From: Pseudomonas sp. gcc21
Lineage (GTDB): Bacteria; Pseudomonadota; Gammaproteobacteria; Pseudomonadales; Pseudomonadaceae
Direction: 5' to 3'
Assembly (NCBI RefSeq): GCF_012844345.1
Contig: NZ_CP051625.1
Location: 2,790,001 to 2,854,000, forward strand
Length of the DNA stretch: 64,000 nt
A model generated the notes under the pieces. That model did not search any database. It was given only the letters and a program-made list of their open reading frames with translations, and was not told the origin of the DNA. Numbering within the stretch: position 1 is the stretch's first letter; each line of letters opens with the position of its first letter. Shown in pieces: positions 27,796 to 41,218 of this stretch. The position numbers and the translations under genes are program-made.

Positions 27796-27870
27796 GTGCG
27801 GCCAGATCGCCGAGAGGTCTCGCCCGCAGATATGGCGTCCGGCTGCGGAATTGAAGGAAAGGCACCGAAG

Positions 27871-27900: not shown

Positions 27901-27954
27901 TCTGTAAGCCTCCCTGGGGTGGTCTAAATGAACGTCGGGACGGACCACGCTGGG

Positions 27955-28029: not shown

Positions 28030-28035
28030 AACCCC

Positions 28036-28134
28036 CTCGTTTTTCCCTTCCCGTCGATCTTCGATCTTTTCGAGATAGCCTTCACGAGCATACTTCAATA
28101 ACGCCGCGTGGTTAGGAGGGAGAGGTCTCCCGGA
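28036..28134 (-). pseudogene. Fragment of AadA-like nucleotidyltransferase C-terminus
   Basis: Encodes LPPNHAALLKYAREGYLEKI followed by EDRREGK, closely parallel to the C-terminal part of the intact gene at 29332-30108 (APPGHARLLKYAREGYLGM, EDRWGK). It starts abruptly after a higA fragment and ends abruptly at the TnpA-like relic. Marks a second, lost aadA-type cassette. Confidence 0.65.
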
Positions 28135-28320
28135 CAATGTTGCGCATAGGCTACCTCCTAATGGTAAACAACAATTTTCGATATCTTCCGCACCGTTCTG
28201 GGTCCAGCGGAAGCACACCCGGAATTGCCTGTTGACTCGAATGCTGTGCTGACCTTGGCGATCACCATGCAACGGCTCCAACATGAGGGTGGAAATCTGG
28301 GGCAGATGACGGTTTACGAT
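28112..28320 (-). pseudogene. Remnant higBA toxin-antitoxin pair
   Basis: Reading leftward from about 28320: LEPLHGDRQGQHSIRVN and FRVCFRWTQNGAED are the C-terminal half of a HigB/RelE-type toxin. TAGGAGG then precedes an ATG at 28147 encoding MRNIVRETSPS, a typical HigA antitoxin start, which stops after 11 codons where it is fused to other fragments. The HigB N-terminal half is lost at the hairpin repeat 28293-28343. Confidence 0.65.
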
Positions 28321-28343
28321 TAATGTTCATCTGACCCCCATTT
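28293..28343. repeat. Hairpin repeat copy 1 (degenerate)
   Basis: Variant of the 51-bp stem-loop defined at 38272-38322: arms AAATCTGGGGCAGATGA and TTCATCTGACCCCCATTT around a loop containing TTAATG. Same orientation as the other copies. It cuts off the higB remnant. Confidence 0.65.
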
Positions 28344-28428
28344 ATTCTTCCAATTTAACTTCCGCGAGTTTGGTGACGCAAAGCGGCGCCGAATTCGTCA
28401 TCGTGCAACCGATTATTATGCATTTGAT

Positions 28429-28821
28429 CTACTCAACAAAACGCCCATCTAGAGCGTTCAACAAACTCGGATCTTCAACGCTCACAGCAGTCCCGCCAGT
28501 AAATGGTGCGGCCCATGAAAAGGCTGAGACGGTTCTGCCACCATAGACATCGACAATTGCGTTTGCACCGACTTTCCGCGCCTCTTCAGCGAGCATCGGA
28601 TATAGGCTCTCGACATTGTCGTAACCCGTTCGAGCATTGGCTTTTATTTGACCAATGACTTCGTACTCGACATCGGATGGCAAACTGGTCCGCATGATGA
28701 ATATCGGCCCCACGGTCTGCTCTGACACAGCTACCTGAGCAACAGAAGACGAAGACACTGACGCGCAGCCTCCTAATGCTGTGGTTACACAAATGACGAA
28801 CAACAGTTTCTTCATATTCAT
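28429..28821 (-). CDS. Putative lipoprotein, unknown function
   Basis: 130 residues from the ATG at 28821 (AGGAAGAG seven bases upstream). Type II signal peptide: MKKLLFVICVTTALGGC with lipobox ALGGC. Mature part contains EYEVIGQIKANARTGYDN and KVGANAIVDVYGG, a pattern of small lipoproteins that sense or bind in the envelope (YbjQ/DUF4156-like fold possible, not established). Probable cassette gene; its downstream attC is not clear. Confidence 0.65.
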   Translation of the reverse strand: MNMKKLLFVICVTTALGGCASVSSSSVAQVAVSEQTVGPIFIMRTSLPSDVEYEVIGQIKANARTGYDNVESLYPMLAEEARKVGANAIVDVYGGRTVSAFSWAAPFTGGTAVSVEDPSLLNALDGRFVE

Positions 28822-28850
28822 ATCTCTTCCTCGCAGGATCCAAGTACATA

Positions 28851-28876
28851 GATTAATGTTCATCTGACCCCAATTT
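28851..28876. repeat. Hairpin repeat copy 2 (right half)
   Basis: GATTAATGTTCATCTGACC followed by CCAATTT: loop plus right arm of the stem-loop at 38272-38322, left arm missing. Lies between the lipoprotein gene start and an attC. Confidence 0.7.
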
Positions 28877-28893
28877 CTTCGATATCACTACTG

Positions 28894-28968
28894 ATTTAAC
28901 GTAAAGCTTCGGCGGTTTTGTAGCCGCGGAGCGGCGGAGAACTGGTCCCGTGCAGCGACTGGTTAGGT
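28894..28968 (-). repeat. Integron attC site
   Basis: On the minus strand ACCTAAC (R'', fits RYYYAAC) opens and GTTAAAT (R', fits GTTRRRY) closes a 75-bp imperfect palindrome with the inner arms CCGCCGCTCCGCGG. Follows the 3' end of the 28984-29226 gene. Confidence 0.75.
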
Positions 28969-28983
28969 GTCTGCTCACTGAGG

Positions 28984-29226
28984 CTATGAGCCAATGCCGA
29001 TTAAAGAATCGATTCCATCATCCCTTATAGTCGCCTTAACTTCCTCCAAGGCTGCACTGTCTGTATCGAACTCGTCATCCCACACCGTGGAGTTGCCGAA
29101 CCCATCCTCTACTTCTAAAATCCAGCCGCCAGCGTCTCCCCGGTAAATATCCACTTTGACGGTTTTGCCGTCAGCCGTCAGTTTCTGGCATAGAGGGCTC
29201 ATTTCGACTTTAAAATCATCTTCCAT
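28984..29226 (-). CDS. Small acidic cassette protein, unknown
   Basis: 80 residues, no signal or membrane segment. Contains GGWILEVEDGFGNSTVWDD and a C-terminal acidic helix. The stop is 16 bp from the attC at 28894-28968, as expected for a cassette gene. Not recognised. Confidence 0.6.
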   Translation of the reverse strand: MEDDFKVEMSPLCQKLTADGKTVKVDIYRGDAGGWILEVEDGFGNSTVWDDEFDTDSAALEEVKATIRDDGIDSLIGIGS

Positions 29227-29257
29227 TACCGATCTCCGAATTGGAATTTATGTACAC

Positions 29258-29331
29258 ATAACGCCCGGCACACGCGCCGGTTTGGGCTTGGAAATCTTCC
29301 CTGCGCCTGTGATCGTCAGCGCTAATTATTC
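29258..29331 (-). repeat. Degenerate attC candidate after the aadA-like gene
   Basis: The minus strand ends in GGGCGTTATGTG, an R'-like GTTATGT, with a GCCGG-type inner palindrome (CCGGCGCG/ CGCGCCGG phrases). The R'' side next to the aadA stop is weak (TAATTAGCGC). Position is right for an attC but the sequence is decayed. Confidence 0.4.
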
Positions 29332-30108
29332 CTATAGACCATCAAGGCACTCTTCACTCGCGTTCTTGAGATAGGAAACAAGCGCATCAAAATCCTCCTG
29401 CTTTCCCCATCGATCCTCAGTCATTCCCAAATAGCCTTCCCGCGCATATTTCAATAGCCTTGCGTGACCAGGAGGTGCTTGCTTTTCGGCCCACTCTGCC
29501 GCCGCATCTTTTGGAGCAATATCGCCGGTAGCAGCGGTCAGCCACATACGTGACAAGGTCAGAACGACATTGCGTTCATCCCCTGCCGCCCCTGCCAAAA
29601 GACCCGGCAAGGAATCATGGATCGCCCGTCGGATATCAGCCACCGGCACCGGCTCGAAAACCTTTTCCGCATGGCTCCCATACAGCGGCAGGCTATTGTC
29701 GATCACTTGCTTCAGAACAAGCGCAAGATCAGGATCTCGGACCGGTTCCGGTACGCTTCCTGTCTCAAACTCCTCTCGCAACCACTCACCGTATACAAAC
29801 TCAGCCCGAGGCGGAAATTGCCACGGCACGACATCAGAAACCGTTATGACCGTCAGCTCTAGCGGCCTGATGGCTTGTAGATTCCCAATCGCGCCAGATA
29901 CGTTCATCAACTGAGTAACCAGAGCCTTCCTTTGTGCAAAGGTAGGCGGGGTTGTAACCACCACCAGGAAATCCACGTCGCTGTCGCGCTTTAGACCACC
30001 AACGACGGCAGAGCCGAAAAGGTAAATGCCGATGATCGAATTACCCAGCACACCTTCAACGACTGACTGTGCCCGTTTCGCTTCATTTGGGATTTCAATA
30101 TTGGCCAT
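29332..30108 (-). CDS. AadA-like aminoglycoside nucleotidyltransferase, ANT(3'') family
   Basis: 258 residues from the ATG at 30108. Nucleotidyltransferase active site GSAVVGGLKRDSDVD (about 29-43) with the paired Asp, a further acidic residue in RPLELTVI, and the family block GDERNVVLTLSRMWLTAATG, then APKDAAAEW. The architecture and length equal AadA, which adenylylates streptomycin/spectinomycin and is classically an integron cassette. All visible active-site residues are present. Whether it confers resistance or acts on another substrate is unknown. A C-terminal fragment of a related gene lies at 28036-28134. Confidence 0.85.
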   Translation of the reverse strand: MANIEIPNEAKRAQSVVEGVLGNSIIGIYLFGSAVVGGLKRDSDVDFLVVVTTPPTFAQRKALVTQLMNVSGAIGNLQAIRPLELTVITVSDVVPWQFPPRAEFVYGEWLREEFETGSVPEPVRDPDLALVLKQVIDNSLPLYGSHAEKVFEPVPVADIRRAIHDSLPGLLAGAAGDERNVVLTLSRMWLTAATGDIAPKDAAAEWAEKQAPPGHARLLKYAREGYLGMTEDRWGKQEDFDALVSYLKNASEECLDGL

Positions 30109-30233
30109 CACTCTGGAAGATCCTCTCGCCCGCACACCTGAGTTCAGCCGACCCGCGCAGTGAAGTGGACCAAGCGAAGAGCGCTACCTGCTGCCTGGGC
30201 GGGGAACGAAGCGGGTTCGGCTTGAGCCCATCG

Positions 30234-30464
30234 TCAGGTCCCGTCGCGGTCGTTGTCATCTTCTGAGTCTGCCGAGGACTTCTCATCCTTGCGAGCCTGG
30301 TGGCTGGACAAAGCAAGAGCTATGGCAATGCCGAGGGCAATCCCCGGACCGATGCCCAAGGCGAGATCGCCCAGGATAAGCCCGAACGCAGCGCCAATGG
30401 CGACGCCCAGCGCAATGCCGATGCCTAGATAGCTGGGTTTCTTGTCTGAGCTGCTTTTTGGCAT
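30234..30464 (-). CDS. Glycine-zipper membrane protein
   Basis: 76 residues from the ATG at 30464, which has AAGGAG at proper distance (an upstream ATG abuts it). A single glycine-rich hydrophobic stretch (GIGIALGVAIGAAFGLILG, then LALGIGPGIALGIAIALAL) followed by a highly charged tail ending in Asp/Arg residues. Glycine-zipper packing in the membrane is likely; function unknown. Likely cassette gene. The 124 bp up to the aadA start hold a GCCGACCCGC/GCGGGTTCGGC palindrome that may be a worn attC. Confidence 0.55.
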   Translation of the reverse strand: MPKSSSDKKPSYLGIGIALGVAIGAAFGLILGDLALGIGPGIALGIAIALALSSHQARKDEKSSADSEDDNDRDGT

Positions 30465-30563
30465 GCGAAGCATCTCCTTGGGGCCTAGCACTTTTCATAA
30501 GCTGCGAGCGCTTTCGAGCTTCTGGTGAAAGAAGGGAGCGAACTTGATGGCTTGGTTGTAAAC

Positions 30564-31082
30564 CTAGGTCGGCCATACAACGTCTACGCGCTCTTGTCGT
30601 TTGAGGCTAAAAGACGTTGCTCTTTTCCTCTGGCCGGGGCTCATCCAAACCAGGCGGACCTCAAGGCTGTTTGCTTCTGAAAACTTTTCCGTAGACCGGC
30701 TATCGAGTACCCGGTAGCGGTAAAGGTAGAGTTTGTTGCCAAGCATTCTTAGACTCGCCTTCACATCAAGAGCTGAATGATAAGCTTCTGCCGTTTCTTC
30801 GGAAGTCACCACGATTGACTTTAGCTCGATAGGGTTTCTGTCCTGCTGTACAACATATACGTATGCCTCAGCCGAGTAACCAGGCCAGAAGCTGTAAAAA
30901 TCAATGACCAAATATGGCAGCTCATCGACATTTATCTGCGACGCCAAATCGGGATCCGGTCTGGACCACTGCAAACATCTTCGATCGGCCTCTGTCTCTT
31001 CGTGAACGAAGTGATAAACCTCTGCTGTACCGCATGCAGTCAACACGAGGGCAGATAACAATAGCGCTAGAGCTCTGAGCAT
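30564..31082 (-). CDS. Putative lipoprotein, unknown function
   Basis: 172 residues from the ATG at 31082: MLRALALLLSALVLTACGT is a lipoprotein signal with lipobox LTAC. Mature part VYHFVHEE, ELPYLVIDFYSFWPGY and SLEVRLVWMSPGQRK suggests a beta-rich envelope domain. Not recognised. Within the cassette region. Confidence 0.65.
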   Translation of the reverse strand: MLRALALLLSALVLTACGTAEVYHFVHEETEADRRCLQWSRPDPDLASQINVDELPYLVIDFYSFWPGYSAEAYVYVVQQDRNPIELKSIVVTSEETAEAYHSALDVKASLRMLGNKLYLYRYRVLDSRSTEKFSEANSLEVRLVWMSPGQRKRATSFSLKRQERVDVVWPT

Positions 31083-31107
31083 CGTGATGATATGCCTATC
31101 GAAAAAG

Positions 31108-31461
31108 TTAGAGCGCAACCCCCGCCATGTTCAGCACGAGCATGGCGACAGTGCCCAAAACGAAAAACACTGGCGGACCCGCAACCGCCAACGCCCGGCA
31201 ACCGTTCAGTCGCAGCGCAGTCCACCCACCCATATCCCCGGTCGATCGGACTTCAGCAACGACAACTGCAAGAACTGCCGCTACCCACAGCAAGGCGAGG
31301 CTCCAAAAGCAAATCCCCGCAGCCATGTTCCATTGGTGCCAGAGCTCAAGGTCGCCGATGCCGCTCTTGTCCATGGCTTGGTCCGCGCGTGACCCGCTGA
31401 CGAAGAAGCCGACAAGCGCTATCCACTGAACAACCACAATGGACCGCAGAGCGTTTCTCAT
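31108..31461 (-). CDS. Three-helix membrane protein, unknown
   Basis: 117 residues from the ATG at 31461. Three hydrophobic segments (about 8-25, 50-72, 90-115) and a cytoplasmic loop RSTGDMGGW. Codons upstream of this ATG give an unconvincing basic leader. Not recognised; within the cassette region, 25 bp upstream of the lipoprotein gene on the same strand. Confidence 0.55.
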   Translation of the reverse strand: MRNALRSIVVVQWIALVGFFVSGSRADQAMDKSGIGDLELWHQWNMAAGICFWSLALLWVAAVLAVVVAEVRSTGDMGGWTALRLNGCRALAVAGPPVFFVLGTVAMLVLNMAGVAL

Positions 31462-31564
31462 TGTTTTTGCAGCCTGACGCCCGGCTTTGCGCGGAGGTCT
31501 AGCTGCGGAATGCCGACAAGGCTGTCCCAGACCCGCCGGGAAGAAAACAGCCAATCGGTACGTT

Positions 31565-31963
31565 TCAGCACCACACTAATCCTTTGTAAGGCGCGTGCTC
31601 CAGCTCAGCCAGGCGAGTCGCCAATGTGCCACTATGGACCTCAAGCCGATGACCATTCGGGTCGAGTAGATAGATGGAATCACCCTCGCTGGTATTCTGC
31701 TTCCACTCTACAGCGCCAATCTGATTCAGTTTAGTTCGCAACTCAAGGAGCTCCCCTTCGCTGATACTGAAAGCGACATGTGTGTAGTCATTGGAAGGCT
31801 CAGGTTGCCCCAAGCTCAAACATAACCATGTATTACCTGCGGTCAGGTACGCACCTGTCTCCCAGAACACATGCAGTTTCATCCCCAACAGATCACGGTA
31901 GAACTCGATCGACTGTCGCAGATTCCGCACGGAAAAGGTGATGTGGTTGATGCCGGTAATCAT
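31565..31963 (-). CDS. FosA-like fosfomycin thiol transferase
   Basis: 132 residues, vicinal-oxygen-chelate fold. Matches FosA along its length: GINHITFSVRNL with the first metal His, NDYTHVAF with the second, NGHRLEVHSG with the metal Glu, and the K+ loop EWKQNTSEGDS. Fos enzymes open the fosfomycin epoxide with glutathione; several variants are known as integron cassettes. Start at 31963 (MITGINH) preferred over a GTG three codons upstream because AAGGT is at correct spacing for it. The sequence differs clearly from P. aeruginosa chromosomal FosA as I recall it. Activity untested. Confidence 0.82.
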   Translation of the reverse strand: MITGINHITFSVRNLRQSIEFYRDLLGMKLHVFWETGAYLTAGNTWLCLSLGQPEPSNDYTHVAFSISEGELLELRTKLNQIGAVEWKQNTSEGDSIYLLDPNGHRLEVHSGTLATRLAELEHAPYKGLVWC

Positions 31964-32020
31964 GCGCTGCACCTTGAGTGAACGTAATGCGGAGCTAAGC
32001 CGTCGCTAAGGCGGTAAGCC

Positions 32021-32191
32021 TCAGCGGATTGCTACGTATTGAACCAGCAAGTCTAAAGCCGCAACGGATGCGACGGACATTAGCCACCAGCCAAAGCATA
32101 TACCTAGCCGAGAAGGCACAAACTCCGTCCAGAGTACGCTACCCAGAACAAAAACCAAGCACAGATAGATGCACGCCCTGGTAAGCATCAC
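32021..32191 (-). CDS. Small two-helix membrane protein (tentative)
   Basis: 56 residues if it starts at the ATG at 32191: two hydrophobic segments (ACIYLCLVFVLGSVLW and WWLMSVASVAALDLLVQY). The stop lies inside a palindromic, attC-like stretch near 31977-32040. The frame is open further upstream into the L,D-transpeptidase remnant, so the true start is uncertain. The ribosome site is weak. Not recognised. Confidence 0.35.
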   Translation of the reverse strand: MMLTRACIYLCLVFVLGSVLWTEFVPSRLGICFGWWLMSVASVAALDLLVQYVAIR

Positions 32192-32331
32192 TTTAGGACT
32201 GATCCCCCCATTGATCCATAAAGTTCTTAATGAGTAGACCAGACAAAAAAACCGATAAGGCATAGCGCCAGTAACGGAAATCCCGCCCAGTTTCCGAAAA
32301 TGGCAGAACCAAAGAACAGGATGCCGAACGC

Positions 32332-32806
32332 CGATCTTAATGGGAGTACCAGCATCCACAGCCTGCCATACTTCCTCCATCTCTGCGTTTGTGATCGCTA
32401 TACAACCATCAGTCCAGTTAAAGCGCTGCGCCAAATAGGACAACCAGCCAAACCCATTGCGTTGCCCGTGAATCATGATAAGCCCACCCGGGCTGACGCC
32501 ACGAGTCTTCGCGCGCTGAATATCTGCGGCGTTGGGATAGGAGACATGAACAGCCTTATAAAAGGCAGAATCTTACTTCTTATAATCCAGCACGTATTTA
32601 GCTTCTGGCGTGCGCTCATCACCTCCTTTTTCCTTGTGCCCTTTTGGGTTCGCCCCGAAGACGACATCGAATTCTCGGAAGGCTTCGCCGTTGCTGATCA
32701 GGAATAACTTGGCTTCTGACTTATTGACCAGAACGAAATCTGCTTTTTGCGCAGCCAACGCGATCGAGGGCAACACGAACAACAACAAGGCTAAAATTTT
32801 TCTCAT
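32332..32806 (-). pseudogene. L,D-transpeptidase (YkuD) pseudogene with in-frame stop
   Basis: Signal peptide (MRKILALLLFVLPSIALA) then KADFVLVNKSEAKLFLI and GDERTPEAKYVLDYKK. A TAA at 32573-32575 interrupts; the same frame continues DSAFYKAVHVSYPNAADIQ, then GGLIMIHGQRNG and WTDGCIAITNAE with the catalytic HG...GC signature. So the reading frame is otherwise intact and one nonsense codon splits it. The normal C-terminus (TPIKI..P) is also lost: from about 32332 the frame enters unrelated membrane-protein-like sequence. Family role: peptidoglycan or related L,D-transpeptidation in the periplasm; this copy should be dead unless read through. Confidence 0.8.
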
Positions 32807-32821
32807 GAGCCCCCTATAGAT

Positions 32822-32951
32822 ACATAACGATGACTAAGCGGCGCCCTAAAATGGGCGTTCGTCAAACGGCCGACAGGCCAAGAACGAACTTGATCGAATT
32901 TTAGCTTCCGGAGCCACCGTACGAGCTTCGCCATTGACGCGTTTGTTACAT
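32822..32951 (-). repeat. Integron attC site (long)
   Basis: Ends ATGTAAC and GTTATGT on the minus strand, about 130 bp, longer than the others. Outer arms pair imperfectly (TAACGATGACTAAGCGGCG against TAACAAACGCGTCAATGGCG). Follows the 3' end of the Coq7-like gene by 4 bases. Confidence 0.65.
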
Positions 32952-32954
32952 GAT

Positions 32955-33464
32955 TTAGAGCTTCGTCGACAGCCATATAGCGAACCTCGTTGACTGCTTC
33001 ACAAGCCCAAATATGGGCTTGTACACAAGCGACTGCGTGCCGTTTTGCTGCCCCATGTTTTGATGATTTTCTTCATCCCGCTTGATACTCAGAACCGCGG
33101 CATGCGCTTCGGTATCGTGCATCTCAAGGAAATCCAGCTGCCATTGCAGGTGATGAAGAACTGTCGTTTCTATTGAGTCTGTACACACCCATACCGCATT
33201 GCGACCTAACAAGGCTGTGACAGTGCCAAGCACAGCTTCACCCACTCTCCAAAATACAAGCCCATAGCACTGACGGATTCCGCGAGCCTTGAGGAGTAGG
33301 TCGAACCTGAGGTAATGCTCACGCTCGTGGCTAAGCATGTCCTCAAGCACCGGAACCATGTCTTTATACAAAAATCGTGCAATGGTCAGTTGAGCGCTAT
33401 AAATGCTTATGGCTCCGCGTTCTCCCGCATGATCCACTCTGATTATTCTCTCAATTTCCTTCAT
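32955..33464 (-). CDS. Coq7-like di-iron protein (demethoxyubiquinone hydroxylase family)
   Basis: 169 residues from the ATG at 33464, shorter than chromosomal Coq7 (about 215). All six di-iron ligand positions appear present: RVDHAGERGA (Glu), SHEREHYLRF (Glu, His), TDSIETTVLHHLQ (Glu), and RDEENHQN (Glu, His). Coq7 hydroxylates demethoxyubiquinone in ubiquinone synthesis at the membrane. It is flanked by attC-like sites on both sides, so it looks like cassette cargo rather than the housekeeping gene. An in-frame extension upstream to 33917 is rejected because it crosses the attC at 33489-33562 and is basic low-quality sequence. Confidence 0.78.
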   Translation of the reverse strand: MKEIERIIRVDHAGERGAISIYSAQLTIARFLYKDMVPVLEDMLSHEREHYLRFDLLLKARGIRQCYGLVFWRVGEAVLGTVTALLGRNAVWVCTDSIETTVLHHLQWQLDFLEMHDTEAHAAVLSIKRDEENHQNMGQQNGTQSLVYKPIFGLVKQSTRFAIWLSTKL

Positions 33465-33488
33465 GCAACCTGCTTGTGGCGTGGTGTC

Positions 33489-33562
33489 CCGTAACCTAAA
33501 GCTAAGCCGCCTGCTTCGAAACCTCAGCGGAGTATGCGGAGAGCTTGAACGTATTGTTGGAC
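33489..33562 (-). repeat. Integron attC site
   Basis: Minus strand: GTCCAAC (fits RYYYAAC) to GTTACGG, 74 bp, with inner arms CTCCGC.../...GGCGGCTTAGC. Lies just upstream of the Coq7-like gene; the cassette it belonged to (rightward) is no longer recognisable. Confidence 0.65.
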
Positions 33563-33828
33563 CCGAGCACGTGGGTGCAAGCCTCCCGCAGCATCCATGC
33601 ATCCGCGAACGGCAACGTTTGTGACGCAGCCGGTGTTTCTCAAGCCAGAAGCCCCTTCTACAATACAGCTTGACCGACCCTGACCCATGGCGCGAGGAAC
33701 CAGACCACGAATCCTGCCGCTCCTGCCGTTTTTTGCGCGGACAAGTGTTGGTCGAGGGTAAACAGTTAGAAGCCTCTCCCTCCCCTACTGACCGAATCCT
33801 TACAAGGCCTTTGCTGCAAGGCTTATCC

Positions 33829-33981
33829 TCAGAAAGGAAGATCCCGACCCCGTGCTCTTTTCTTTTTGTTGATGGCCCAGGTGGCTTCGTGGACGATGGC
33901 CTGCAGTTCTTGAGCAAGCTGATCGAACAAGTGAGCTACTCTGGCCCATTGATCTACGATCAAACAGCCCAGCCACGCGGA
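33829..33981 (-). pseudogene. Coding-like fragment, unknown
   Basis: Within the 607-bp gene-free interval 33465-34071. The minus frame ending at TGA 33829-33831 reads DQWARVAHLFDQLAQELQAI and then VHEATWAINKKKRARGRD, which looks like a genuine helical protein end but has no start codon or ribosome site and opens directly after a stop. Probably a truncated gene. The rest of the interval shows nothing I recognise beyond the attC and the promoter region of the next gene. Confidence 0.35.
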
Positions 33982-34071
33982 TCACGCAGGCGCCAAGGGT
34001 TTGCCCCGCATCTTGTGCGGTAACAACGGTCAGTGAAGCACTAGACCACTTATCTTTTTCAGGAGAAAAAA

Positions 34072-35199
34072 GTGTCAGATACCAACATCGAACTTACTTC
34101 CACCATTAGCGAAGACAACAAACTGGAACTTGCCCTGCGCGAGATCGAGATCCCGCAGCCAGGCGAAAATCAGGTGGTCATCCGCGTCGAAGCCGCGCCT
34201 ATCAACCCGTCTGACCTGGGAGTGATGTTCAGCGCAGCCGATATGACGACAGCCAAGCAATCCGGTAGCGCCGAGCGCCCAGTCATCAGTGCCGATGTCC
34301 CGGCCAAATTCATGGGTGCCGTTAAAAAGCGGATTGGCAAGTCTATACCCGTGGGCAACGAAGGCGCCGGTACCGTCGTCGCGGCTGGCTCGTCAGCCGC
34401 TGCGCAAAGCCTGATGGGCAAAACCGTTGCCTTCATTGGCGGTGGCAGCTACCGCAAATATCTGTGTGCCAATGTTCAAAGTTGTCTGGAACTGGAGCCG
34501 GGTACCACGGCAGTCGAAGCTGCCTCCAGCTTTGTTAATCCGCTTACTGCACTGGCTATGGTAGAAACCATGCGCGCCGAAGGTCACAAGGCCATCGTTC
34601 ACGCTGCCGCTGCCTCCAACCTCGGACAAATGCTCAACCGCATCTGCATCGCCGACGGCATCGACCTGGTCAATATCGTCCGCAAGCCAGAACAGGAAGC
34701 ATTGTTGCGCGACCTGGGTGCCCAATACGTGGTCAATTCCAGCAGCGACAGCTTTATGGCAGACCTGACCCAGGCACTCATCGACACCGGCGCCACCATC
34801 GCCTTCGACCCTATCGGTGGCGGACGATTGGCTAGTGACATCCTCACCTGTATGGAGGCCGCCGTCTCCCGCAACATGAATGAATACAGCGTGTACGGAT
34901 CTGACATCTACAAGCAGGTATATATCTATGGCGGCCTTGATCGTGGCCCCATCACGCTCAACCGCACCTTTGGTTTTGCCTGGGGTGTGAACGGCTTCCT
35001 GTTGTTCAATGCGTTGGGGAAACTGGGTAAGGACACCGCCGCCGCCATGCGCAAGCGCATAGCCGCCGAAATCAAGACCACGTTCGCCAGTCACTACACG
35101 CACGAAGTGTCCCTGGCCGGTGCGTTACAACTGGATGCGATGTCGGTTTACGGCAAACAGGCTACCGGGGAGAAGTTTCTGATCAAGCCGCAGAGCTAA
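34072..35199 (+). CDS. Zinc-binding-type alcohol dehydrogenase/quinone oxidoreductase family protein
   Basis: 375-residue medium-chain dehydrogenase/reductase. GroES-like N-terminal domain (VEAAPINPSDLGVMF), GNEGAGTVVAAGS, and a Rossmann half (HAAAASNLGQMLNRI, then IAFDPIGGG). The longer N-terminal part (to about 110) is typical of a Pseudomonas subgroup. GTG start at 34072 with AGGAGAAAA upstream. Plus-strand and GC-richer than the cassette genes around it, with no attC, so it seems to be ordinary chromosomal sequence interrupting the array. Substrate unknown. Confidence 0.8.
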   Translation: MSDTNIELTSTISEDNKLELALREIEIPQPGENQVVIRVEAAPINPSDLGVMFSAADMTTAKQSGSAERPVISADVPAKFMGAVKKRIGKSIPVGNEGAGTVVAAGSSAAAQSLMGKTVAFIGGGSYRKYLCANVQSCLELEPGTTAVEAASSFVNPLTALAMVETMRAEGHKAIVHAAAASNLGQMLNRICIADGIDLVNIVRKPEQEALLRDLGAQYVVNSSSDSFMADLTQALIDTGATIAFDPIGGGRLASDILTCMEAAVSRNMNEYSVYGSDIYKQVYIYGGLDRGPITLNRTFGFAWGVNGFLLFNALGKLGKDTAAAMRKRIAAEIKTTFASHYTHEVSLAGALQLDAMSVYGKQATGEKFLIKPQS

Positions 35200-35230
35200 C
35201 GTTTAGCGTCTGGCCGCAAGGCCATTCCAG

Positions 35231-35259
35231 GGCGCTGGAGTCAGGTTGACTCCAGCGCC
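35231..35259. terminator. Hairpin between convergent genes
   Basis: Thirteen-base perfect stem (GGCGCTGGAGTCA / TGACTCCAGCGCC) with a 3-base loop, between the stops of the dehydrogenase and the DUF2959 gene. Likely bidirectional terminator. Confidence 0.65.
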
Positions 35260-35281
35260 TGCGTGAGTGGTAATCCTGCCT

Positions 35282-35926
35282 TTAATCCTGGAGGCTGCTG
35301 ATGAAGGCTTCTGATTCAGCAATGGATTTTTCCATTTCCCTGATCAACTGGGCGACATCTGTTTCTATTGTCCCCAGCTCACCTTGTAACGAGTCAATGG
35401 CTCGCGCATTCAGATTATGCTTTAGAAACAGCACCTGATCCCGGAAGGCCTGTAATACGGGCGCCATGCGGGCCTCTGCGCTACGCATCGCCTTGATGAG
35501 TCCCTGGTATTGCCGCCGGGTCTGGCTTAACTTCGCTGCACTTTGGCGCTTGAGATTGGCATTGCTGTACAGCTCGATCTCTTCCTCCCACTCATCGAAC
35601 AATGCCTCGGACACGTCTTCGACCGCATCGATGCGGTCGATTACCGACTTAGCGGCGGCTTTACTGTCTTCGTATTCATCGTTCAGCCTGTCGTAGCGTG
35701 CTGCCAGGTCCTGGTCTTTGATCTGGATAATGGATCGGAATTGCGCCAGGGCGGATTCGAACTGTTCTTTGGCATCAGTCTGCGCATCCTGGACCGACCC
35801 CACGCGATTGACCATGATATCGCGCTTGTGAACACCCACTTTCTCCATGGCGCCGTAATACGCCGACTGACAACCCGTCAGAGCCGTAACCAAAAAAGCA
35901 CATAACAACCAACGACTTATCGACAT
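35282..35926 (-). CDS. DUF2959 family lipoprotein
   Basis: 214 residues. Lipoprotein signal (LLCAFLVTALTGC), the family start QSAYYGAMEKVGVHKRDIM, then a long coiled coil rich in Glu/Lys/Gln. Function unknown; conserved in proteobacteria. Not associated with an attC, and with the preceding gene forms the non-cassette island. Confidence 0.8.
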   Translation of the reverse strand: MSISRWLLCAFLVTALTGCQSAYYGAMEKVGVHKRDIMVNRVGSVQDAQTDAKEQFESALAQFRSIIQIKDQDLAARYDRLNDEYEDSKAAAKSVIDRIDAVEDVSEALFDEWEEEIELYSNANLKRQSAAKLSQTRRQYQGLIKAMRSAEARMAPVLQAFRDQVLFLKHNLNARAIDSLQGELGTIETDVAQLIREMEKSIAESEAFISSLQD

Positions 35927-36080
35927 ATATCCTTACCTTTAGCTGGATTTTTGCGAGCTTGAATGGGACAAATGATAGCCTTTTTGGATGCTGGGAGGTC
36001 ATACCCCCTGGCGCCAAGGCCCAGAGAAGGGGACAGCTTTATTTTCTGAAAATTTTCGGCCTGCCTTGGCCTCGAATCTC

Positions 36081-36111
36081 GATGAATGTTCATCTGATCT
36101 GACCCCAATTT
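36081..36111. repeat. Hairpin repeat copy 3 (right half)
   Basis: GATGAATGTTCATCTGATCT then GACCCCAATTT: loop and right arm of the 38272-38322 element with an internal ATCTG duplication. It abuts the truncated attC at 36112-36143. The bases just left (35927-36080) contain AAGGGGACAGCTTTATTTT, another phrase common near REP-associated transposases, and no gene. Confidence 0.65.
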
Positions 36112-36143
36112 AATACAGAACGAACTACAACAACCGGTTAGGC
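36112..36143 (-). repeat. Truncated attC half-site
   Basis: On the minus strand GCCTAAC (perfect R'') and a few inner bases follow the 36149-36520 gene, but the partner GTTRRRY side is missing: hairpin repeat copy 3 takes its place. Evidence that the repeat marks a deletion junction. Confidence 0.6.
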
Positions 36144-36148
36144 GTTAC

Positions 36149-36520
36149 TCAAGTTCCAGCACCGCACAGGGCGGCGGGCAGTTGGCCTGCTAAAGTTCGC
36201 TGCCAATCGGTAGCAACTTCCTTGGAACTGAATGTCCCATGTAAATCCCCGCTAGGAATTGGCACCCAGATTGTCGACCTCGAAAACTCACGATCACCGA
36301 CAACGATGCGGATCATTTTTCCGGTGTTTGCTTCCGTGAAGGCCCCCAAACTTTTGGTACCAATTCCTGTTAATTTGACGAATACCGGCCAGCCAAGATC
36401 TGTCTGCTCCCCAGCTACAGCTTTCTCCACGTAGGCCGAACAAAGACTAAACTCCTGCTCAGTCTCGGCCGATGCAACGCCAGGAAAAGCCAGTAAAAAA
36501 ACAGCGATCCAACTCATCAT
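36149..36520 (-). CDS. Secreted cassette protein, unknown
   Basis: 123 residues from the ATG at 36520. Sec signal (MSWIAVFLLAFPGVASAE), mature part with two cysteines (SLCSAYVEKAV, AALCGAGT) that may pair, and TKSLGAFTEANTGKMIRIVV. Sits between two attC positions. Not recognised. Confidence 0.65.
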   Translation of the reverse strand: MMSWIAVFLLAFPGVASAETEQEFSLCSAYVEKAVAGEQTDLGWPVFVKLTGIGTKSLGAFTEANTGKMIRIVVGDREFSRSTIWVPIPSGDLHGTFSSKEVATDWQRTLAGQLPAALCGAGT

Positions 36521-36531
36521 GACCAGTGCCT

Positions 36532-36604
36532 GCCTAACGCCTGAGGTAACGGCCGGCAACGGAGCGCAGCGAAGTTGGCGTCCCGCTGACCACCTTGTTA
36601 GGGC
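36532..36604 (-). repeat. Integron attC site
   Basis: Classical form: minus strand CCCTAAC ... GTTAGGC (R' fits GTTRRRY perfectly), 73 bp, central arms AACTTCGCTGCGCTCCGTT. One of the clearest attC sites here. Confidence 0.85.
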
Positions 36605-36650
36605 CTTTGAATCGGGATAGCATAGCTCTATCGCGACTCGCGGAGGCACC

Positions 36651-36884
36651 ATGACTACCGAAACACTAAATCAACTACGCTCTCAGATTTCGACTCTCTC
36701 TGAGTCAGAGCGTGCTGCGTTGGCTCGAGAGCTCATTATGAGCCTAGACGGCCCTCGCGACGACTCTGTTGAGCAAGCTTGGCACGATGAAATTATTCGG
36801 CGTGTAGCCAAGGTGAAAAGCGGTAAGGCTACACTGCTCAGCCGTGAAGAATTTCGTACAAAGATGCGAGCAAGGATAGGCTAG
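36651..36884 (+). CDS. Antitoxin, putative addiction-module component
   Basis: 77-residue helical protein of the 'putative addiction module component' type (TIGR02574-like): LSESERAALARELIMSLDG and AWHDEIIRRVAKVKSGKA. It precedes a RelE/ParE toxin gene by 5 bp. Gene orientation is opposite to most cassette genes, common for toxin-antitoxin cassettes that carry their own promoter. GGAGG precedes the ATG. Confidence 0.75.
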   Translation: MTTETLNQLRSQISTLSESERAALARELIMSLDGPRDDSVEQAWHDEIIRRVAKVKSGKATLLSREEFRTKMRARIG

Positions 36885-36889
36885 TAAAA

Positions 36890-37203
36890 GTGCGAACGGT
36901 AAGGATACTGGAAGAAGCCTCGCAGGAAGCCATAGAGGCGGCAGCATGGTACGAATTTGAGCAACCTGGACTGGGAGCCGAGTTTTTCGCTGCAGTTGAC
37001 ACTGCCATCGACGTTATTAAGAAAACTTCATCCCTCTATCACCTCTCCCCGAAGAGGCTGGCGATACCGGTGCAAGACGCCTGATTCTGAATCACTTCCC
37101 ATACGATATAGTGGCCATTGAACTGCCAGAAGAAGCTGTAGTCATTGCCGTTGCTCACCACTCCCGAAAACCTGGCTATTGGCGGAAACGCCGTAAGCCC
37201 TAA
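36890..37203 (+). pseudogene. RelE/ParE-type toxin gene, frameshifted
   Basis: First frame: VRILEEASQEAIEAAAWYE, QPGLGAEFFAAVDTAI, ending prematurely at 37084. From about 37040 a second frame continues PLPEEAGDTGARRLILNHFP and YDIVAIELPEEAVVIAVAHH, ending RKRRKP with TAA at 37201-37203 inside the next attC. One base appears deleted near 37038-37044. Together they give a full ParE toxin. A dead toxin with an intact antitoxin is the stable way for such a module to decay. Confidence 0.8.
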
Positions 37204-37275
37204 CGTGTGAACTCATGGGCCGGCTTGTAGCGGCGAAGCGGCGGAGAACCGGTCCCAGGCAGTGACTGGTTATGA
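37198..37275 (-). repeat. Integron attC site
   Basis: 78-bp site, minus strand from ATAACC near 37275 to GTTAGGG at 37198-37204. Inner arms TTCTCCGCCGCTTCGCCGC closely resemble the attC at 28894-28968. Contains the stop codons of both flanking genes. Confidence 0.75.
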
Positions 37276-37518
37276 ATTGGCCACACAGCCTCCGATCTTA
37301 TGGACACGCTTCGTTGAAGCCGGATATTTGGCTAGGAGCGTCGCAGGGCGGATGGGCCTGGGTACGAAGTTACCGTCACAATTTGGGCACTGGTGGCTCA
37401 AGACCTCTGAGGCACAAGAAGCGTAAAAGGTGCACTCGAAGCTACAGATCACCGCCTCAGTCGATTCTGGCGGCAGGTCCTTGTCGCAGCACTCACAATT
37501 GGGCCTTAACTCAAGCAT
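37270..37518 (-). CDS. DUF1272 family protein
   Basis: 82 residues, cysteine-rich zinc-binding type: MLELRPNCECCDKDLPPES, then ICSFECTFYASC and HQCPNCDGNFV. The whole family pattern is present including RPATLLAKYPASTKR. Function unknown; found both as chromosomal genes and integron cassettes. Ends in the attC at 37198-37275. Confidence 0.85.
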   Translation of the reverse strand: MLELRPNCECCDKDLPPESTEAVICSFECTFYASCASEVLSHQCPNCDGNFVPRPIRPATLLAKYPASTKRVHKIGGCVANS

Positions 37519-37535
37519 CGCGCTCTCCGTGCTGA

Positions 37536-37608
37536 TTGATAACGCCTGGGCTAAGCCGCCGGTGCGAAGCGCAGCGTAATACCGGTCGGCTTGAGCCCAT
37601 GGTTAAGC
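37536..37608 (-). repeat. Integron attC site
   Basis: Minus strand GCTTAAC (fits RYYYAAC) to GTTATCA, 73 bp, with the typical arms AAGCCGACCGG... / CCGGCGGCTTAGC. Begins inside the stop of the 37603-38172 gene. Confidence 0.8.
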
Positions 37609-38172
37609 ATCTTCCCACCGTACATGAAGAATCTCATCAATCCTCTCCTGATACTCCGGTTGGATATGGATGGGGATAACACCCTCTCCTATCTCTTTTG
37701 CTATCGCGTAACGATGATGGCCACCATTAAAAATGACCTCACCACTTTCAAGCGGTTTGACCAATGGAGGAGAAATCGGCCGCCCTTCTGATAGATAAAC
37801 TATCAGACGCGCTAGCTTGTCTTTCGAACCAACTTTCCAGAGCTCGCCTTCGTCACGGCGACTATAGTGGCAAAGCTTTTTGTCAAATTCTTGAAGGGTA
37901 ATAAAGCCCAGCAAGAACCCGGCAGGGTAATACTCTGCAAATTTTTTTGGGCTCTCGCCATCCAATGAGTGACGTTGGCTTTCCCGTGAAAGATCCCAAT
38001 TGAATTTTATTGGCGGCCATTCCGACGAGAGGGTGTCAATATATTTCTCTGACTCATTAGATAGCCTTTGGAAAAGCGATCGCTTCGCTCGATATTCTTC
38101 AAGCGTTTCACCTGCATTCTCGGCTGAGATCTGATCAATGGCTTTACCTAGATCCATATCCTCGGACTTCAT
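37603..38172 (-). CDS. Cassette protein with ParB-like C-terminal motif
   Basis: 189 residues, soluble. C-terminal third has LARLIVYLSEGRPISPPLV, GEVIFNGGHHRYAIAKEIG, which resembles the ParB/sulfiredoxin-like nuclease-fold motif (GxHRxxxA). N-terminal part helical and unrecognised. Flanked by attC sites on both sides, so a complete cassette. Function unknown. Confidence 0.65.
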   Translation of the reverse strand: MKSEDMDLGKAIDQISAENAGETLEEYRAKRSLFQRLSNESEKYIDTLSSEWPPIKFNWDLSRESQRHSLDGESPKKFAEYYPAGFLLGFITLQEFDKKLCHYSRRDEGELWKVGSKDKLARLIVYLSEGRPISPPLVKPLESGEVIFNGGHHRYAIAKEIGEGVIPIHIQPEYQERIDEILHVRWEDA

Positions 38173-38178
38173 CGTGTG

Positions 38179-38225
38179 CTCAACGCCGCATTCAGCGGCT
38201 TGTCCGCTGGAATGCTTTGTTAGCC
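38179..38225 (-). repeat. Short integron attC site
   Basis: Minus strand GGCTAAC to GTTGAGC (perfect GTTRRRY), only about 47 bp with stem AGCGG/CCGCT. Adjacent to the start of the 37603-38172 gene. It belongs to a cassette whose gene is now only a tail (38192-38271). Confidence 0.7.
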
Positions 38226-38271
38226 AATTCCAGCTCTAAATCAGACAATTGCTTGTCTACTTTTTCGGGCG
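38192..38271 (-). pseudogene. Tail of a lost cassette gene
   Basis: The minus frame reads PEKVDKQLSDLELELANKA and stops at 38192-38194 inside the short attC, the normal place for a cassette gene to end. Upstream it runs directly into the hairpin repeat at 38272, with no start codon. The rest of the gene is gone. Confidence 0.5.
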
Positions 38272-38322
38272 AAATTGGGGTCAGATGAAGGTTTAGGATT
38301 AATGTTCATCTGACCCCAATTT
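38272..38322. repeat. Hairpin repeat, complete copy
   Basis: AAATTGGGGTCAGATGAA (38272-38289) and its perfect reverse complement (38305-38322) around a 15-base loop. Three other full or half copies occur at 28293-28343, 28851-28876 and 36081-36111, all in the same orientation. The GGGGTCAGA core recalls sequences linked to REP-associated tyrosine transposases (from general knowledge; no transposase gene is in the window). Confidence 0.8.
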
Positions 38323-38395
38323 ATGTAACGACGCAATCACGCGCTTGTCGCGTGCATTGTATTGTATTGTATTGTATTGTATTGTATTGTTATAG
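38323..38395 (-). repeat. Integron attC site containing a pentanucleotide repeat
   Basis: Minus strand CTATAAC to GTTACAT, 73 bp. One arm includes ACGCGACAAGCGCGT; the rest is seven tandem ATTGT units (38356-38390). Directly abuts the complete hairpin repeat. Confidence 0.65.
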
Positions 38396-38396
38396 T

Positions 38397-39259
38397 TTAT
38401 ACATCAATGATTATCCTTTGCATTTCATCTTTATAGTATTCGATGTAAACCGGATAAACGCCATCTGCGCCTAAAGATATTGATACCCCTGCACCTAAGC
38501 CACCATTAACAAAAGATAAATGACGTATTTTTTGTATTCTGTATCGTGCATATCACCCCCAATATAGCTAGATTTTATGGCTGGAAAATCCCCGCTATAT
38601 TCAACTTTTTTAGCAAGCCCTCTAGCTACCATTTCCTTTGCCGCAAGCTCTTCTTCAAAACCAAGCAACTCTGCGGGGAAAGAATCATCCTCGTTGGATG
38701 TACAAAAATATTCCCCAGAGTCTATGACTTTATACATATGTTCTTGTTTCTGAAATTCCTCATGCTCCATTTCTGAGGTCATCTTAGGATACCACGGGTC
38801 GCAGATCATTAGACTTGCAGTATCTACGCATACTGACCCGATATGTCTTTGCTCTAGGTCACTATCAGAAACCTCTATAAAATCCTTTATCTCGCTATCC
38901 CATACAGTTATGCTCTTTCGGAATTCAGTCGCTTTTTCAATGGAGTCTCGAAGTGACTGTATTTCTCGATTTTTAAGGTCAATCTGCTCTACATGAGACG
39001 CACTATCTTCAGCCAGCCGAGATATCTCTTCTTCTCTTATTTTTATTCTTTCGCTGAGCTGCTTCTCAATAAACTCAGGCGCTCTTCGCTCAAGATCTAA
39101 GGCTTTGTCTTTCCACAGCCTCAGGTTCTGCGCTGCTATTTTAAGCTGTGAATCCTTAAGCTGATTGACAGACCGGAGGTTTTTTACATATGCGGCATAT
39201 ATGAATCCAATTACTGCTAAAGCAGTTAGGTTTGTAGCCGCAGCGACTATTTCATACAC
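38397..39259 (-). pseudogene. Membrane-anchored coiled-coil cassette protein, frameshifted near the end
   Basis: An uninterrupted frame from 39259 stops at 38495 (254 residues): N-terminal membrane helix (LTALAVIGFIYAAYV), coiled coil (about 30-110), then GSVCVDTASLMICDPWYPK. Just before that stop, at a run of six A's near 38533, a shift of frame would continue HLSFVNGGLGAGVSISLGAD, GVYPVYIEYYKDEM and end at 38397 beside the attC, the normal end for a cassette gene. The GDG.YPVY-like end resembles DUF4241-type proteins. One A is probably missing, so this is a recent pseudogene or a sequencing error in a homopolymer. Confidence 0.65.
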
Positions 39260-39303
39260 GATAATCCCTCTGTTCTAACGTCTATGGCACGATCTCTAAC
39301 AAC

Positions 39304-39380
39304 TTATAACGATTAAGCTAAGGGGCGGGCTTTAGCCCGTCCCAGCGAACGAAGTGAGCGATTTGAGCGCATTGTTATAC
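39304..39380 (-). repeat. Integron attC site
   Basis: 77 bp between ATAAC at 39306-39310 and GTTATAC at 39374-39380, central palindrome GGGGCGGGCTTTAGCCCG, then TCGTTCGCTGGG-type arm. Contains the stop of the 39375-39665 gene. Confidence 0.75.
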
Positions 39381-39665
39381 GCCCAGACCACGAATTAATG
39401 TATCGGCTTCTTCTGCGTTTATGACTTTGTATGGCTGGTTGTAATGTGAATATAAGAATGGCGTGCCGCCTTCTTTGCAGGTGACCTTAGCTTGAATTAA
39501 AAACTTAGTTCCCACCGGATAGCCTTTGCGCATTTTTGAGGAGCATTCGACATTCATTGATGTGTCGAGATTCTGGCCTGGCAACGGGCGCGCCCGAACA
39601 CCTTCGCTAGAAGTAGTGCCCCGACCTGAGTACGTTTCGATAGCTACGGTTCGATAATTGCTCAC
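39375..39665 (-). CDS. Small cassette protein, unknown
   Basis: 96 residues, soluble. Contains PVGTKFLIQAKVTCKEGGTP and YNQPYKVINAEEADTLI, beta-rich in the middle. Not recognised. Complete cassette between two attC sites. Confidence 0.65.
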   Translation of the reverse strand: MSNYRTVAIETYSGRGTTSSEGVRARPLPGQNLDTSMNVECSSKMRKGYPVGTKFLIQAKVTCKEGGTPFLYSHYNQPYKVINAEEADTLIRGLGV

Positions 39666-39701
39666 TAACGACCTCCATGTGCAGAGTTTTATTGCTTGGG
39701 C

Positions 39702-39761
39702 GTATAACGCTTGAATTAAGCCGCGCTGCGAAGCGGCGTCGGCTTGAATGATTTGTTATAT
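39702..39761 (-). repeat. Integron attC site
   Basis: 60-bp site with the textbook inner arms AAGCCGACGCCGCTTCGCAG and GCGGCTTAATTCAAGCG, very like attC sites of mobile integrons (for example those of aadA cassettes). Ends GTTATAC on the minus strand. Confidence 0.85.
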
Positions 39762-40007
39762 GTGAGTGCGATAGATCTCAACCGCGGTTTCCTGGGGCGT
39801 TGAGTTTGAGTAACGAAGAGCACCATTCCCGTGCCTAGAGTGTATGTAGGGCCCCGCCCCCGGCTCTGGGCGTGACTCAACCTCCTCTCCGCGCCATCCG
39901 CCTTCGAGCTCAACAACGAAAAACTCATCCTTCTTTTTCATCAGCTTCTGCACGAGGCTGCGAAGCCCAGTGGAGTTGAAGTCCTCTTTATCTTCCAGGA
40001 ACGACAT
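39756..40007 (-). CDS. Small cassette protein, unknown
   Basis: 83 residues from the ATG at 40007 (GAGGTTAAGA upstream; the longer reading starts inside the neighbouring attC). Contains KKDEFFVVELEGGWRGEEVE and ends in the attC at 39702-39761. Not recognised. Confidence 0.6.
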   Translation of the reverse strand: MSFLEDKEDFNSTGLRSLVQKLMKKKDEFFVVELEGGWRGEEVESRPEPGAGPYIHSRHGNGALRYSNSTPQETAVEIYRTHI

Positions 40008-40019
40008 TCTTAACCTCAC

Positions 40020-40100
40020 ATCTAACGCCGTCAACACAGGCCGAGCGAAGCGAGGTCCAGCCCGCGTCTTTTGCGGGCGCTGTGCTTGGCCTTGTTAACT
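40020..40100 (-). repeat. Integron attC site (first after attI)
   Basis: 81 bp. R' GTTAGAT fits GTTRRRY; the R'' side is AGTTAAC. Arms GCCAAGCACAGCGCCCGC and the CCTCGCTTCGCTCGG loop region. Follows the first cassette gene directly. Confidence 0.8.
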
Positions 40101-40712
40101 GCTTTTTTTACTTTTGATAGATTTTAAATGGTCTACAAAATCATTATGAGTGCGCCAACCTAAAAGTCTCACTATTTCAAAGGCAAAGTTTACTTGCGAC
40201 CTGGCATCCCATACGACCCCGTCATTCCTGATTGCGTCAAGTTTTCCGAACAAGTTTATTACATTGACTGATATTTCTTTAGGGTTCTCGTAGTGGATAC
40301 TTTGGTTTCGCCCCTCAAAGATAATATCCTTGACTAAAACCCCACCAATATTTTCCCCATCGGGTGCATTTTGTGGTTTACCGTATCTTAAAGAGATACA
40401 TTGCTTTGCAATTTGTAGGAGCGCACCAGAAAGGGCAGCTATTGAAACTGACTTAGCGTCAATACTCTGGGACACCTCTTTGATGTGGTTTTCTAGCTCT
40501 CTTTTTGGTTGCGCGACTTTTGCCATCTGCGCATGATAGTAATTCGCAGCAGGATGAAATTCGTTAGCCATGAAGACTTGATACTTAACATTGAATTCGG
40601 CAGTAAGCCTTTTCAGCTCAGCATTCAGATTTTCCAAGCTCGCAAAATCCTCCCAAATCAGATCGATTAACGATGAAGTAGCAAACTTAGTTTCATCAAT
40701 ATATTTCTGCAT
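40095..40712 (-). CDS. First cassette gene, unknown function
   Basis: 205 residues, mostly helical and soluble. Blocks: HPAANYYHAQMAKVAQPKRE, IAALSGALLQIAKQCISLRY, and FEIVRLLGWRTHNDFVDHL. Not recognised; a HEPN-like helical fold is possible but not shown. As the first cassette it would be best placed for expression from an integrase-side promoter. Confidence 0.65.
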   Translation of the reverse strand: MQKYIDETKFATSSLIDLIWEDFASLENLNAELKRLTAEFNVKYQVFMANEFHPAANYYHAQMAKVAQPKRELENHIKEVSQSIDAKSVSIAALSGALLQIAKQCISLRYGKPQNAPDGENIGGVLVKDIIFEGRNQSIHYENPKEISVNVINLFGKLDAIRNDGVVWDARSQVNFAFEIVRLLGWRTHNDFVDHLKSIKSKKSS

Positions 40713-40931
40713 ATCTCAATACTTGGTAGCAATTAACAGTGATTAGATGAAATTCCGTGATATCACATATTCGTTGCTTCCAGATAACAACGCAACGCCT
40801 GCTCTCCAGCGCATCAGAAATTACGCTAAATCAGATATATACCAAGCGCGTCACAGGCCTGCCTGTAATCGCTTGACTTCCACAATTGCTGATCTCGATA
40901 CCACTGTACGCCCATACAGCTAGAGGCAGGT
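40713..40931. other. Probable attI and integron promoter region
   Basis: 219 bp between the first cassette gene and the integrase start. AGATAAC at 40782-40788 gives GTTATCT on the minus strand with GGCGTTGCGTT before it, a plausible attI crossover point. The integrase ribosome site is GAGGCAGG before 40932. A Pc promoter is expected here, but I could not fix -35/-10 boxes with confidence. Confidence 0.5.
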
Positions 40932-41218
40932 ATGAACACCGCCCCAACCACTCCTCGTCTTCGAGACCAGTTCCGAGCCGTTATTCGGTTACACCATTAC
41001 AGCATTACAGCATTCGCACGGAGAAGTCTTACTGGTGCTGGATACGATACTTTATCCGTTTCCACAAGCTGCGTTATCCTCTTGAAATGGGTCCGGCGGA
41101 GGTTAACGCTTTTCTCAGTTGGTTAGCGGTGGACCGAGACGTTGCTGCGGCCACGCAAAATCAGGCGTTGAATGCAATCGCGTTTCTCTATGCCCGGGTG
41201 CTACATCCCGCCAGATAA
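40932..41218 (+). pseudogene. intI: Integron integrase, truncated and frameshifted
   Basis: Starts MNTAPTTPRLRDQFRAVIRL and HHYSI in one frame; then an exact 8-bp tandem duplication (ACAGCATT, near 41004-41019) shifts to a second frame reading HYSIRTEKSYWCWIRYFIRF, HKLRYPLEMGPAEVNAFLSW and AATQNQALNAIAFLYARVL, the SAM-like N-terminal domain of IntI. It ends after LHPAR at 41218. The whole catalytic domain (about two thirds of a 320-340 residue protein, with the Arg/His/Tyr residues) is missing. The end overlaps the pdeM stop by 18 bp. Confidence 0.9.

Follow-up and report, generated by a model that had tools for sequence, protein, structure and literature searches.

A probable sedentary chromosomal integron in decay beside PdeM in a Halopseudomonas-type chromosome

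The stretch of 64,000 nucleotides analysed in this study (the window) covers C1:2790001-2854000 of the single-contig 3.98 Mb Halopseudomonas-type chromosome of Pseudomonas sp. gcc21 (host genome label G000). Between a SCO/CtaB side on the left and a PdeM/Lhr side on the right, it very likely carries a decaying sedentary chromosomal integron that belongs to the Halopseudomonas lineage. An integrase fragment, an attI core and an attC array running in one direction were found together, and the locus recurs in two close relatives, where its cassettes are different ones. This bears out an earlier note on the window, which had described a decayed chromosomal integron there. We take the left-hand genes to be CtaA, CtaB and SCO-type genes, and the right-hand ones to be PdeM and an Lhr-type helicase gene. 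The window PdeM gene has named relatives in Pseudomonas profundi (at 93%), in P. saliphila (at 91%) and elsewhere in Halopseudomonas.

Results

Integrase remnant and attI

The right edge of the locus holds what is left of an integron integrase gene. An open reading frame (ORF) at 40886..41218 (+), in a single frame, matched residues 11-80 of the 315 of TIGR02249 (integrase_gron) with 82.4 bits (80.4 bits in the genome search), and also matched PF13495. The earlier note's truncated integron integrase at this edge is thereby confirmed, and is almost certainly not another tyrosine recombinase. PF00589 has 18 matches in the host genome and 0 inside the window. According to the junction alignment, the remnant keeps about residues 19-92 of a 324-aa relative, and about 70% of the protein, on the C-terminal side, is gone up to the 3' end of PdeM. 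The start of intI lies in another reading frame (40932..41000, +), with a short tandem repeat at the frame change. With this frame change and the large deletion, the locus holds a remnant only and no functional integron integrase.

Over the same residues, the fragment shares 63-80% identity with the main genus lineage's intact integrases; the figure is 51-56% for the intact integrases of G013, G020 and G030, which form a second lineage, and 54% for the integrase of a second integron in its own genome, at 3.144 Mb, which is class 1-type by eye. The intI1 gene that a mobile class 1 integron would have was not found at the locus. In the tree, the window and P. profundi fragments cluster (96/85) within the genus IntI clade (98/97), together with integrases from the purL site.

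The attI core GTTAATT (40731..40737, -) lies next to intI, 18 bases ahead of the first cassette ORF's start codon, and is present in 18 of 20 aligned loci. In the upstream alignment of these 20 loci, ACTGTT is common to 18 and divergence begins directly after it. A LexA-box-like motif, CTGT-N8-ACAG, lies upstream of intI (40904..40919) and most of the aligned relatives have a counterpart in the same position; by itself, such a motif would turn up by chance about 0.85 times in a window. We take CTGT-N8-ACAG to be the LexA-box consensus.

The attC array

Since the covariance model R1 misses attC sites with long hairpin tops, a two-arm attC score was built for this analysis; its bit values are not those of Infernal, and sites of at least 20 bits are called firm. 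None of the 26 training sites came from the window: 21 were taken from nine other loci, which carry the genus integrase or a remnant of it and include the PdeM locus of P. profundi, and 5 from the host's second integron. Candidates were supplied by a stricter R''/R' and folding scan beside the relatives' integrases, and the 26 were picked by eye from 39 array-side matches listed; of the 13 dropped, 12 were not attC-like (no AACAA/AACCA after the R'' box, or clearly in coding DNA) and 1 was a near-copy (L086). A plain R''/R' and folding scan was rejected as an attC finder, being too noisy (26 matches in the window, 12 of them in the locus). In leave-one-out tests, all 26 training sites scored 28.2-56.5 bits with correct ends.

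In the window, 8 attC sites scored 22.4-46.8 bits and 3 borderline sites 17.8-18.2 bits, all on the minus strand of the locus; the array bounded by the firm sites is oriented away from intI. On the plus strand of 27701-41400 no site reached 14 bits. None of 12 dinucleotide shuffles of the window had a site of at least 20 bits, and 2 had sites of at least 17.5 bits (4 sites in total). Natural control DNA of 183,688 bases, which includes four related Alcanivorax-type records and is not fully independent, gave 1 site of at least 20 bits and 4 of at least 17.5 bits. In a covariance-model check of the kind suggested in the earlier note, R1, which copes poorly with long hairpin tops, found only 3 sites in the window at E < 0.02; genome-wide, with 150 of 1,869 candidates scored, 5 of the 10 matches listed fell in the locus. 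Bottom-strand folds of 12 sites gave z scores of -3.8 to -2.3 in 5 and of -1.4 to 0.9 in 7.

The firm sites, all on the minus strand, lie outward from attI at 40020..40100 (39.5 bits), 39702..39761 (46.8 bits, with 87% identity to the attC that the aadA-type cassette of the second integron carries), 39304..39380 (26.9 bits), 38323..38395 (26.2 bits), 38178..38225 (43.3 bits), 37537..37608 (40.7 bits), 37198..37275 (22.4 bits) and 36532..36603 (31.9 bits). Next to its R'' box, the 38323 site has a seven-copy ATTGT repeat (38356-38390); these seven perfect units would make for a wider unpaired spacer. The borderline sites, on the same strand, are 33489..33562 (17.9 bits), 31982..32037 (18.2 bits) and 28894..28968 (17.8 bits). 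Eleven coordinates had been listed previously; 8 proved firm, 2 (28894 and 33489) are borderline, and the palindrome at 32822..32951 (-), with -0.5 bits, is unsupported as attC. The site at 31982 had been missed. With the second integron's 5 sites taken out of the training set, 7 of the 8 firm sites stayed at 20 bits or above (37198 fell to 15.3) and all three borderline sites fell below 14; when the P. profundi site was removed as well, 6 of the 8 stayed firm (39304 fell to 15.3) and 31982 scored 14.1. A possible fossil attC at 29256..29321 (-) scored 6.3 bits; by eye, it kept the right arm and lost the left. At 30137-30245, where the attC model gave no match, an attC-like L-box pair that has lost both core boxes can be seen by eye.

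Scores fall with distance from attI (Spearman rho -0.74, p 0.0098, for the 11 sites of at least 15 bits), and the window attC sites score below the attC sites at 16 loci elsewhere (Mann-Whitney p 0.003).

The locus in related genomes

TIGR02249 matched above its cut-off in 24 of 37 genus genomes; the counts for G000 and G035 rest on genes of >500 bits that resemble class 1, a class we infer. The gene purL lies convergent to intI in 18 of 30 genome pieces, from 18 genomes; in the others, the integrase lies elsewhere or at a contig edge. Among the matches listed, the integrase frame appears to be unbroken in 8 of the 18 purL-site genomes, and to be broken or partial in the other 10. The purL site of the host itself has no integron integrase and no attC of at least 20 bits, the best score in 20 kb being 16.3 bits.

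The integron lies beside PdeM in the host and in its two close relatives, P. profundi and P. saliphila; the integrase lesion differs among the three. At this site, P. profundi has a longer N-terminal part of the integrase, without the tandem repeat, and P. saliphila has a C-terminal piece only (residues 287-323, 92%). Because the three remnants differ, the most natural view is that the lesions now visible arose independently; a still earlier lesion may be common to all three. The flanks are the same in the close relatives. With blastn at E 1e-3, the window shared with the relatives' arrays these flanks, the intI 5' region, the DUF2959 block described below, attC or attC-edge stretches and a dispersed repeat; beyond them, nothing was common to the window array and those of the close relatives. 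In three loci where there is no integron (L055-L057), two genes lie between PdeM and SCO, with no attC of at least 20 bits. One of the two is presumably of radical-SAM type; sought elsewhere, it had no match in G000, G017, G021 and G007 and one match in G022.

Cassette cargo

Minus-strand genes predominate in the locus, the exceptions being 34072-35199 and an addiction-module pair at 36651-37084. The earlier picture of mostly minus-strand short genes beside palindromes is correct as to the strand; several of the palindromes belong to a dispersed repeat. From attI outward, cassette ORFs 1 (40095..40712), 2 (39756..40037, 93 aa as listed, overlapping both adjoining attC sites) and 3 (39375..39665), all on the minus strand, had no family match in the scans applied to them, nor did a 189-aa ORF at 37603..38172 (-). 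ORF 4 (38495..39259, -, 254 aa) had no family assignment and one weak PADLOC match (E 0.006); PADLOC on 10 ORFs gave two weak partial matches only. A DUF1272 gene follows at 37270..37518 (-). The addiction-module pair (36651..37084, +) runs counter to the array; its antitoxin (36651-36884) matched PF09720 and TIGR02574, and its partner ORF (36890-37084), short and without a Pfam match, was identified by eye. The ORF at 36149..36652 (-) matched SecDF_P1_head under the Pfam cut-off.

Farther out, all on the minus strand, are a COQ7-family gene (32955..33494; Pfam 144.5 bits, NCBIfam equivalog not reached), an L,D-transpeptidase (YkuD) gene, assigned by family match and broken into two ORFs (32021..32806), a putative FosF/FosK-like fosfomycin thiol transferase gene (31565..31972; Fos_GSH 199 bits, cut-off 180), a putative AadA/ANT(9)-like nucleotidyltransferase gene (29332..30135; PRK13746.1 248 bits, cut-off 193; ANT_9 308, under its cut-off of 340) and a distal ORF with no family match (28429..28863). 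The AadA/ANT(9)-like and FosF/K-like genes are named by family likeness, and no resistance is claimed for them. Genus loci with attC elsewhere hold relatives of this cargo, for example of the DUF1272 gene (84%, in L088) and of the Fos gene (72%, in L104). A cargo of mostly unknown genes plus resistance-type genes had been proposed; these two genes and the many unmatched ORFs agree with that, and the segment 33808-36031 has to be taken out of it as a conserved block rather than ordinary cassettes.

Rfam at the gathering threshold gave no match within the locus; a match to the small RNA ErsA/Pseudomon-1 (RF01719) lies outside it, at window 54305-54427. Between SCO and the distal array end lie a scrap of an AadA C-terminus (28054-28119; 22 residues, 77% identity) and an ORF (27745-28284) with a short match to the insertion sequence transposase IS66 TnpA (31 bits, cut-off 28).

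The DUF2959-dehydrogenase block

A conserved 2.2 kb block at 33808..36031 contains a zinc-type dehydrogenase gene (34072-35199, +) convergent with a DUF2959 gene (35282-35926, -), and is 93-94% identical in P. profundi and P. saliphila. It was rejected as a cassette: its edges are not at attC, and none is recognisable there. Of 37 genomes, 9 were found to have the block. It extends 100-270 bases beyond the two genes at its edges, and its surroundings vary between most genomes. In 8 of the 9, attC sites of at least 20 bits in the same orientation lie within about 10 kb (in one case a single 21.5-bit site); in G030, no attC of at least 20 bits lies within 10 kb of contig. It is conceivable, though rather improbable, that the block, with no attC of its own, behaves as a module, either moving along with the integron arrays of Halopseudomonas or settling in them. 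If so, integrons would gain cargo by a second route besides cassettes.

Dispersed repeat and other attC sites

Several palindromes of the locus were rejected as attC and are instead copies of the dispersed GGGGTCAGATGAA repeat. The sequence TTCATCTGACCCCAATTT, with at most 2 mismatches, occurs at 26 places in the genome, with window copies at 28326, 28859, 36094, 38272 and 38305. Some copies form a perfect hairpin of two 18-base arms, and some adjoin window attC sites; the copy at 38272..38322, with two such arms, lies directly beside one. The repeat may be a repetitive extragenic palindromic (REP) element of a REP-associated tyrosine transposase (RAYT), because two Y1_Tnp (PF01797) genes have copies close by, one at 1992.1 kb (31 bases away) and one at 1994.6 kb (~520 bases away).

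Elsewhere in the host genome, an orphan attC pair (46.7 and 41.2 bits) lies at 9599-9670 and 12037-12096 of locus L121 (G000:C1:682001-702000), with, by eye, a metG-like gene alongside and an IS3-type insertion between the two sites. The host's second integron, in locus L019 (G000:C1:3140001-3160000), is of class 1 type; its intI frame is open and its cassettes include several of resistance type, the genes besides intI being read by eye.

Discussion

The favoured reading is of a sedentary chromosomal integron that lost its integrase. The ancestral integrase, probably under SOS/LexA control, would have taken up cassettes as circles, recombining attI with an attC in its folded bottom-strand form, and older cassettes would have been displaced away from attI by newer ones. 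The integrase would have been lost later, and the distal attC sites would then have worn out. SOS control is known for integron integrases (PMC3108266). The platform probably stems from an integrase family whose usual place is next to purL, and would have moved to, or been acquired at, the site between SCO and PdeM. This arrival would predate the split of the window host, P. profundi and P. saliphila, with the integrase then lost separately in each.

Several observations weigh against this reading or parts of it. The comparison with 16 loci is biased, because nine of those loci also supplied 21 of the model's 26 training sites. Other loci, too, can show the distance trend: among 13 other loci tested, it reached p < 0.01 in G016 and G026 and was not significant in 11. 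The three borderline sites, which are the distal ones, lean on the class 1 training sites, and a stray control match at 48478 (+) in the window, with 18.9 bits, scores above all of them. In 7 of the 12 folded sites, including 3 of the 8 firm ones, z is above -2, and 28894 folds no better than shuffles (z 0.9). The integrase fragment occupies just 23% of the tree columns. As to origin, a move from purL and a separate acquisition both fit.

The orphan array might also still be in motion, the class 1 integrase on the same chromosome recombining its attC sites in trans; we consider this possible, if unlikely. The second integron lies ~313 kb away and is called class 1 by eye, from its cassettes. 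Its intI frame is open over 339 aa, with no stop, and one window attC is 87% identical to its aadA-type attC. That attC is in turn 88% identical to stretches of plasmid records, among the matches listed (12 of 3,175 records matching a 5.1 kb query); only short attC-sized and DUF1272-sized stretches are among the matches listed in the plasmid search. However, tblastn found no cassette gene common to both arrays, with an AadA resemblance of 38% only, and the class 1 integron may have entered the chromosome only recently. The word frozen, used of the array in the earlier note, was an inference and is not kept here, because the second integron, whose 339-aa integrase frame is open, could in principle act on it from elsewhere on the chromosome.

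It is far less probable that the locus was never an active integron, its cassettes having entered singly, through secondary sites or homologous recombination, next to an intI fragment that had been captured. In favour of this, the present integrase cannot be active, and the orphan attC pair at C1:691.6-694.1 kb stands elsewhere in the genome. Against this, the conserved attI followed immediately by different DNA in P. profundi and in the window fits capture at attI, as do the uniform attC orientation and the distance trend. A reading in which ordinary repeats or terminators account for the palindromes, and another tyrosine recombinase for the integrase remnant, is practically untenable: some palindromes of the region are indeed dispersed repeat copies, but the attC model, trained outside the window, separates the sites from shuffles and control DNA, which refutes such a reading for most of the 8 strong attC sites, and the fragment matches integrase_gron.

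The locus adds a pseudomonad genus with one integrase lineage that lies mostly at purL and, in three genomes, at PdeM. These three PdeM-site genomes, with their differing remnants, form a natural series in which to measure the decay of attC arrays after integrase loss, and the host is a case where an orphan array meets a class 1-type integrase. A limited open-literature search found no earlier description of a Halopseudomonas integron, of the purL platform or of the PdeM shift. Chromosomal integrons of Pseudomonas stutzeri were reportedly described by Holmes et al. in 2003; like the window locus they are pseudomonad cassette arrays.

The decay of integron integrases is already well documented, and the window locus is a new case of it. 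An early genome survey counted nearly one third of integron integrases as pseudogenes, broken by stops, frameshifts and major insertions or deletions (PMC2426708); a later one gave 43-46% (PMC3108266). The early survey, published in 2008, covered 103 bacteria searched in 2007, and the Halopseudomonas lineage does not appear in its accessible text. With 8 firm attC sites and a truncated integrase, the locus also resembles a cluster of attC sites lacking an integron integrase (CALIN), that is, at least 2 attC sites with no complete or working integrase; it differs in that it retains an intI remnant and an attI core (PMC12444791). According to the same paper, Xanthomonas has a genus-wide integron at one site, ilvD, with frequent inactivation and CALINs. 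The two genera are alike in having a platform at one favoured place, lying downstream of a gene with a housekeeping role, an integrase that is often inactivated, and arrays or CALINs that remain; in contrast to the ilvD site, purL is the commonest site here, and in the host's clade the platform stands beside PdeM.

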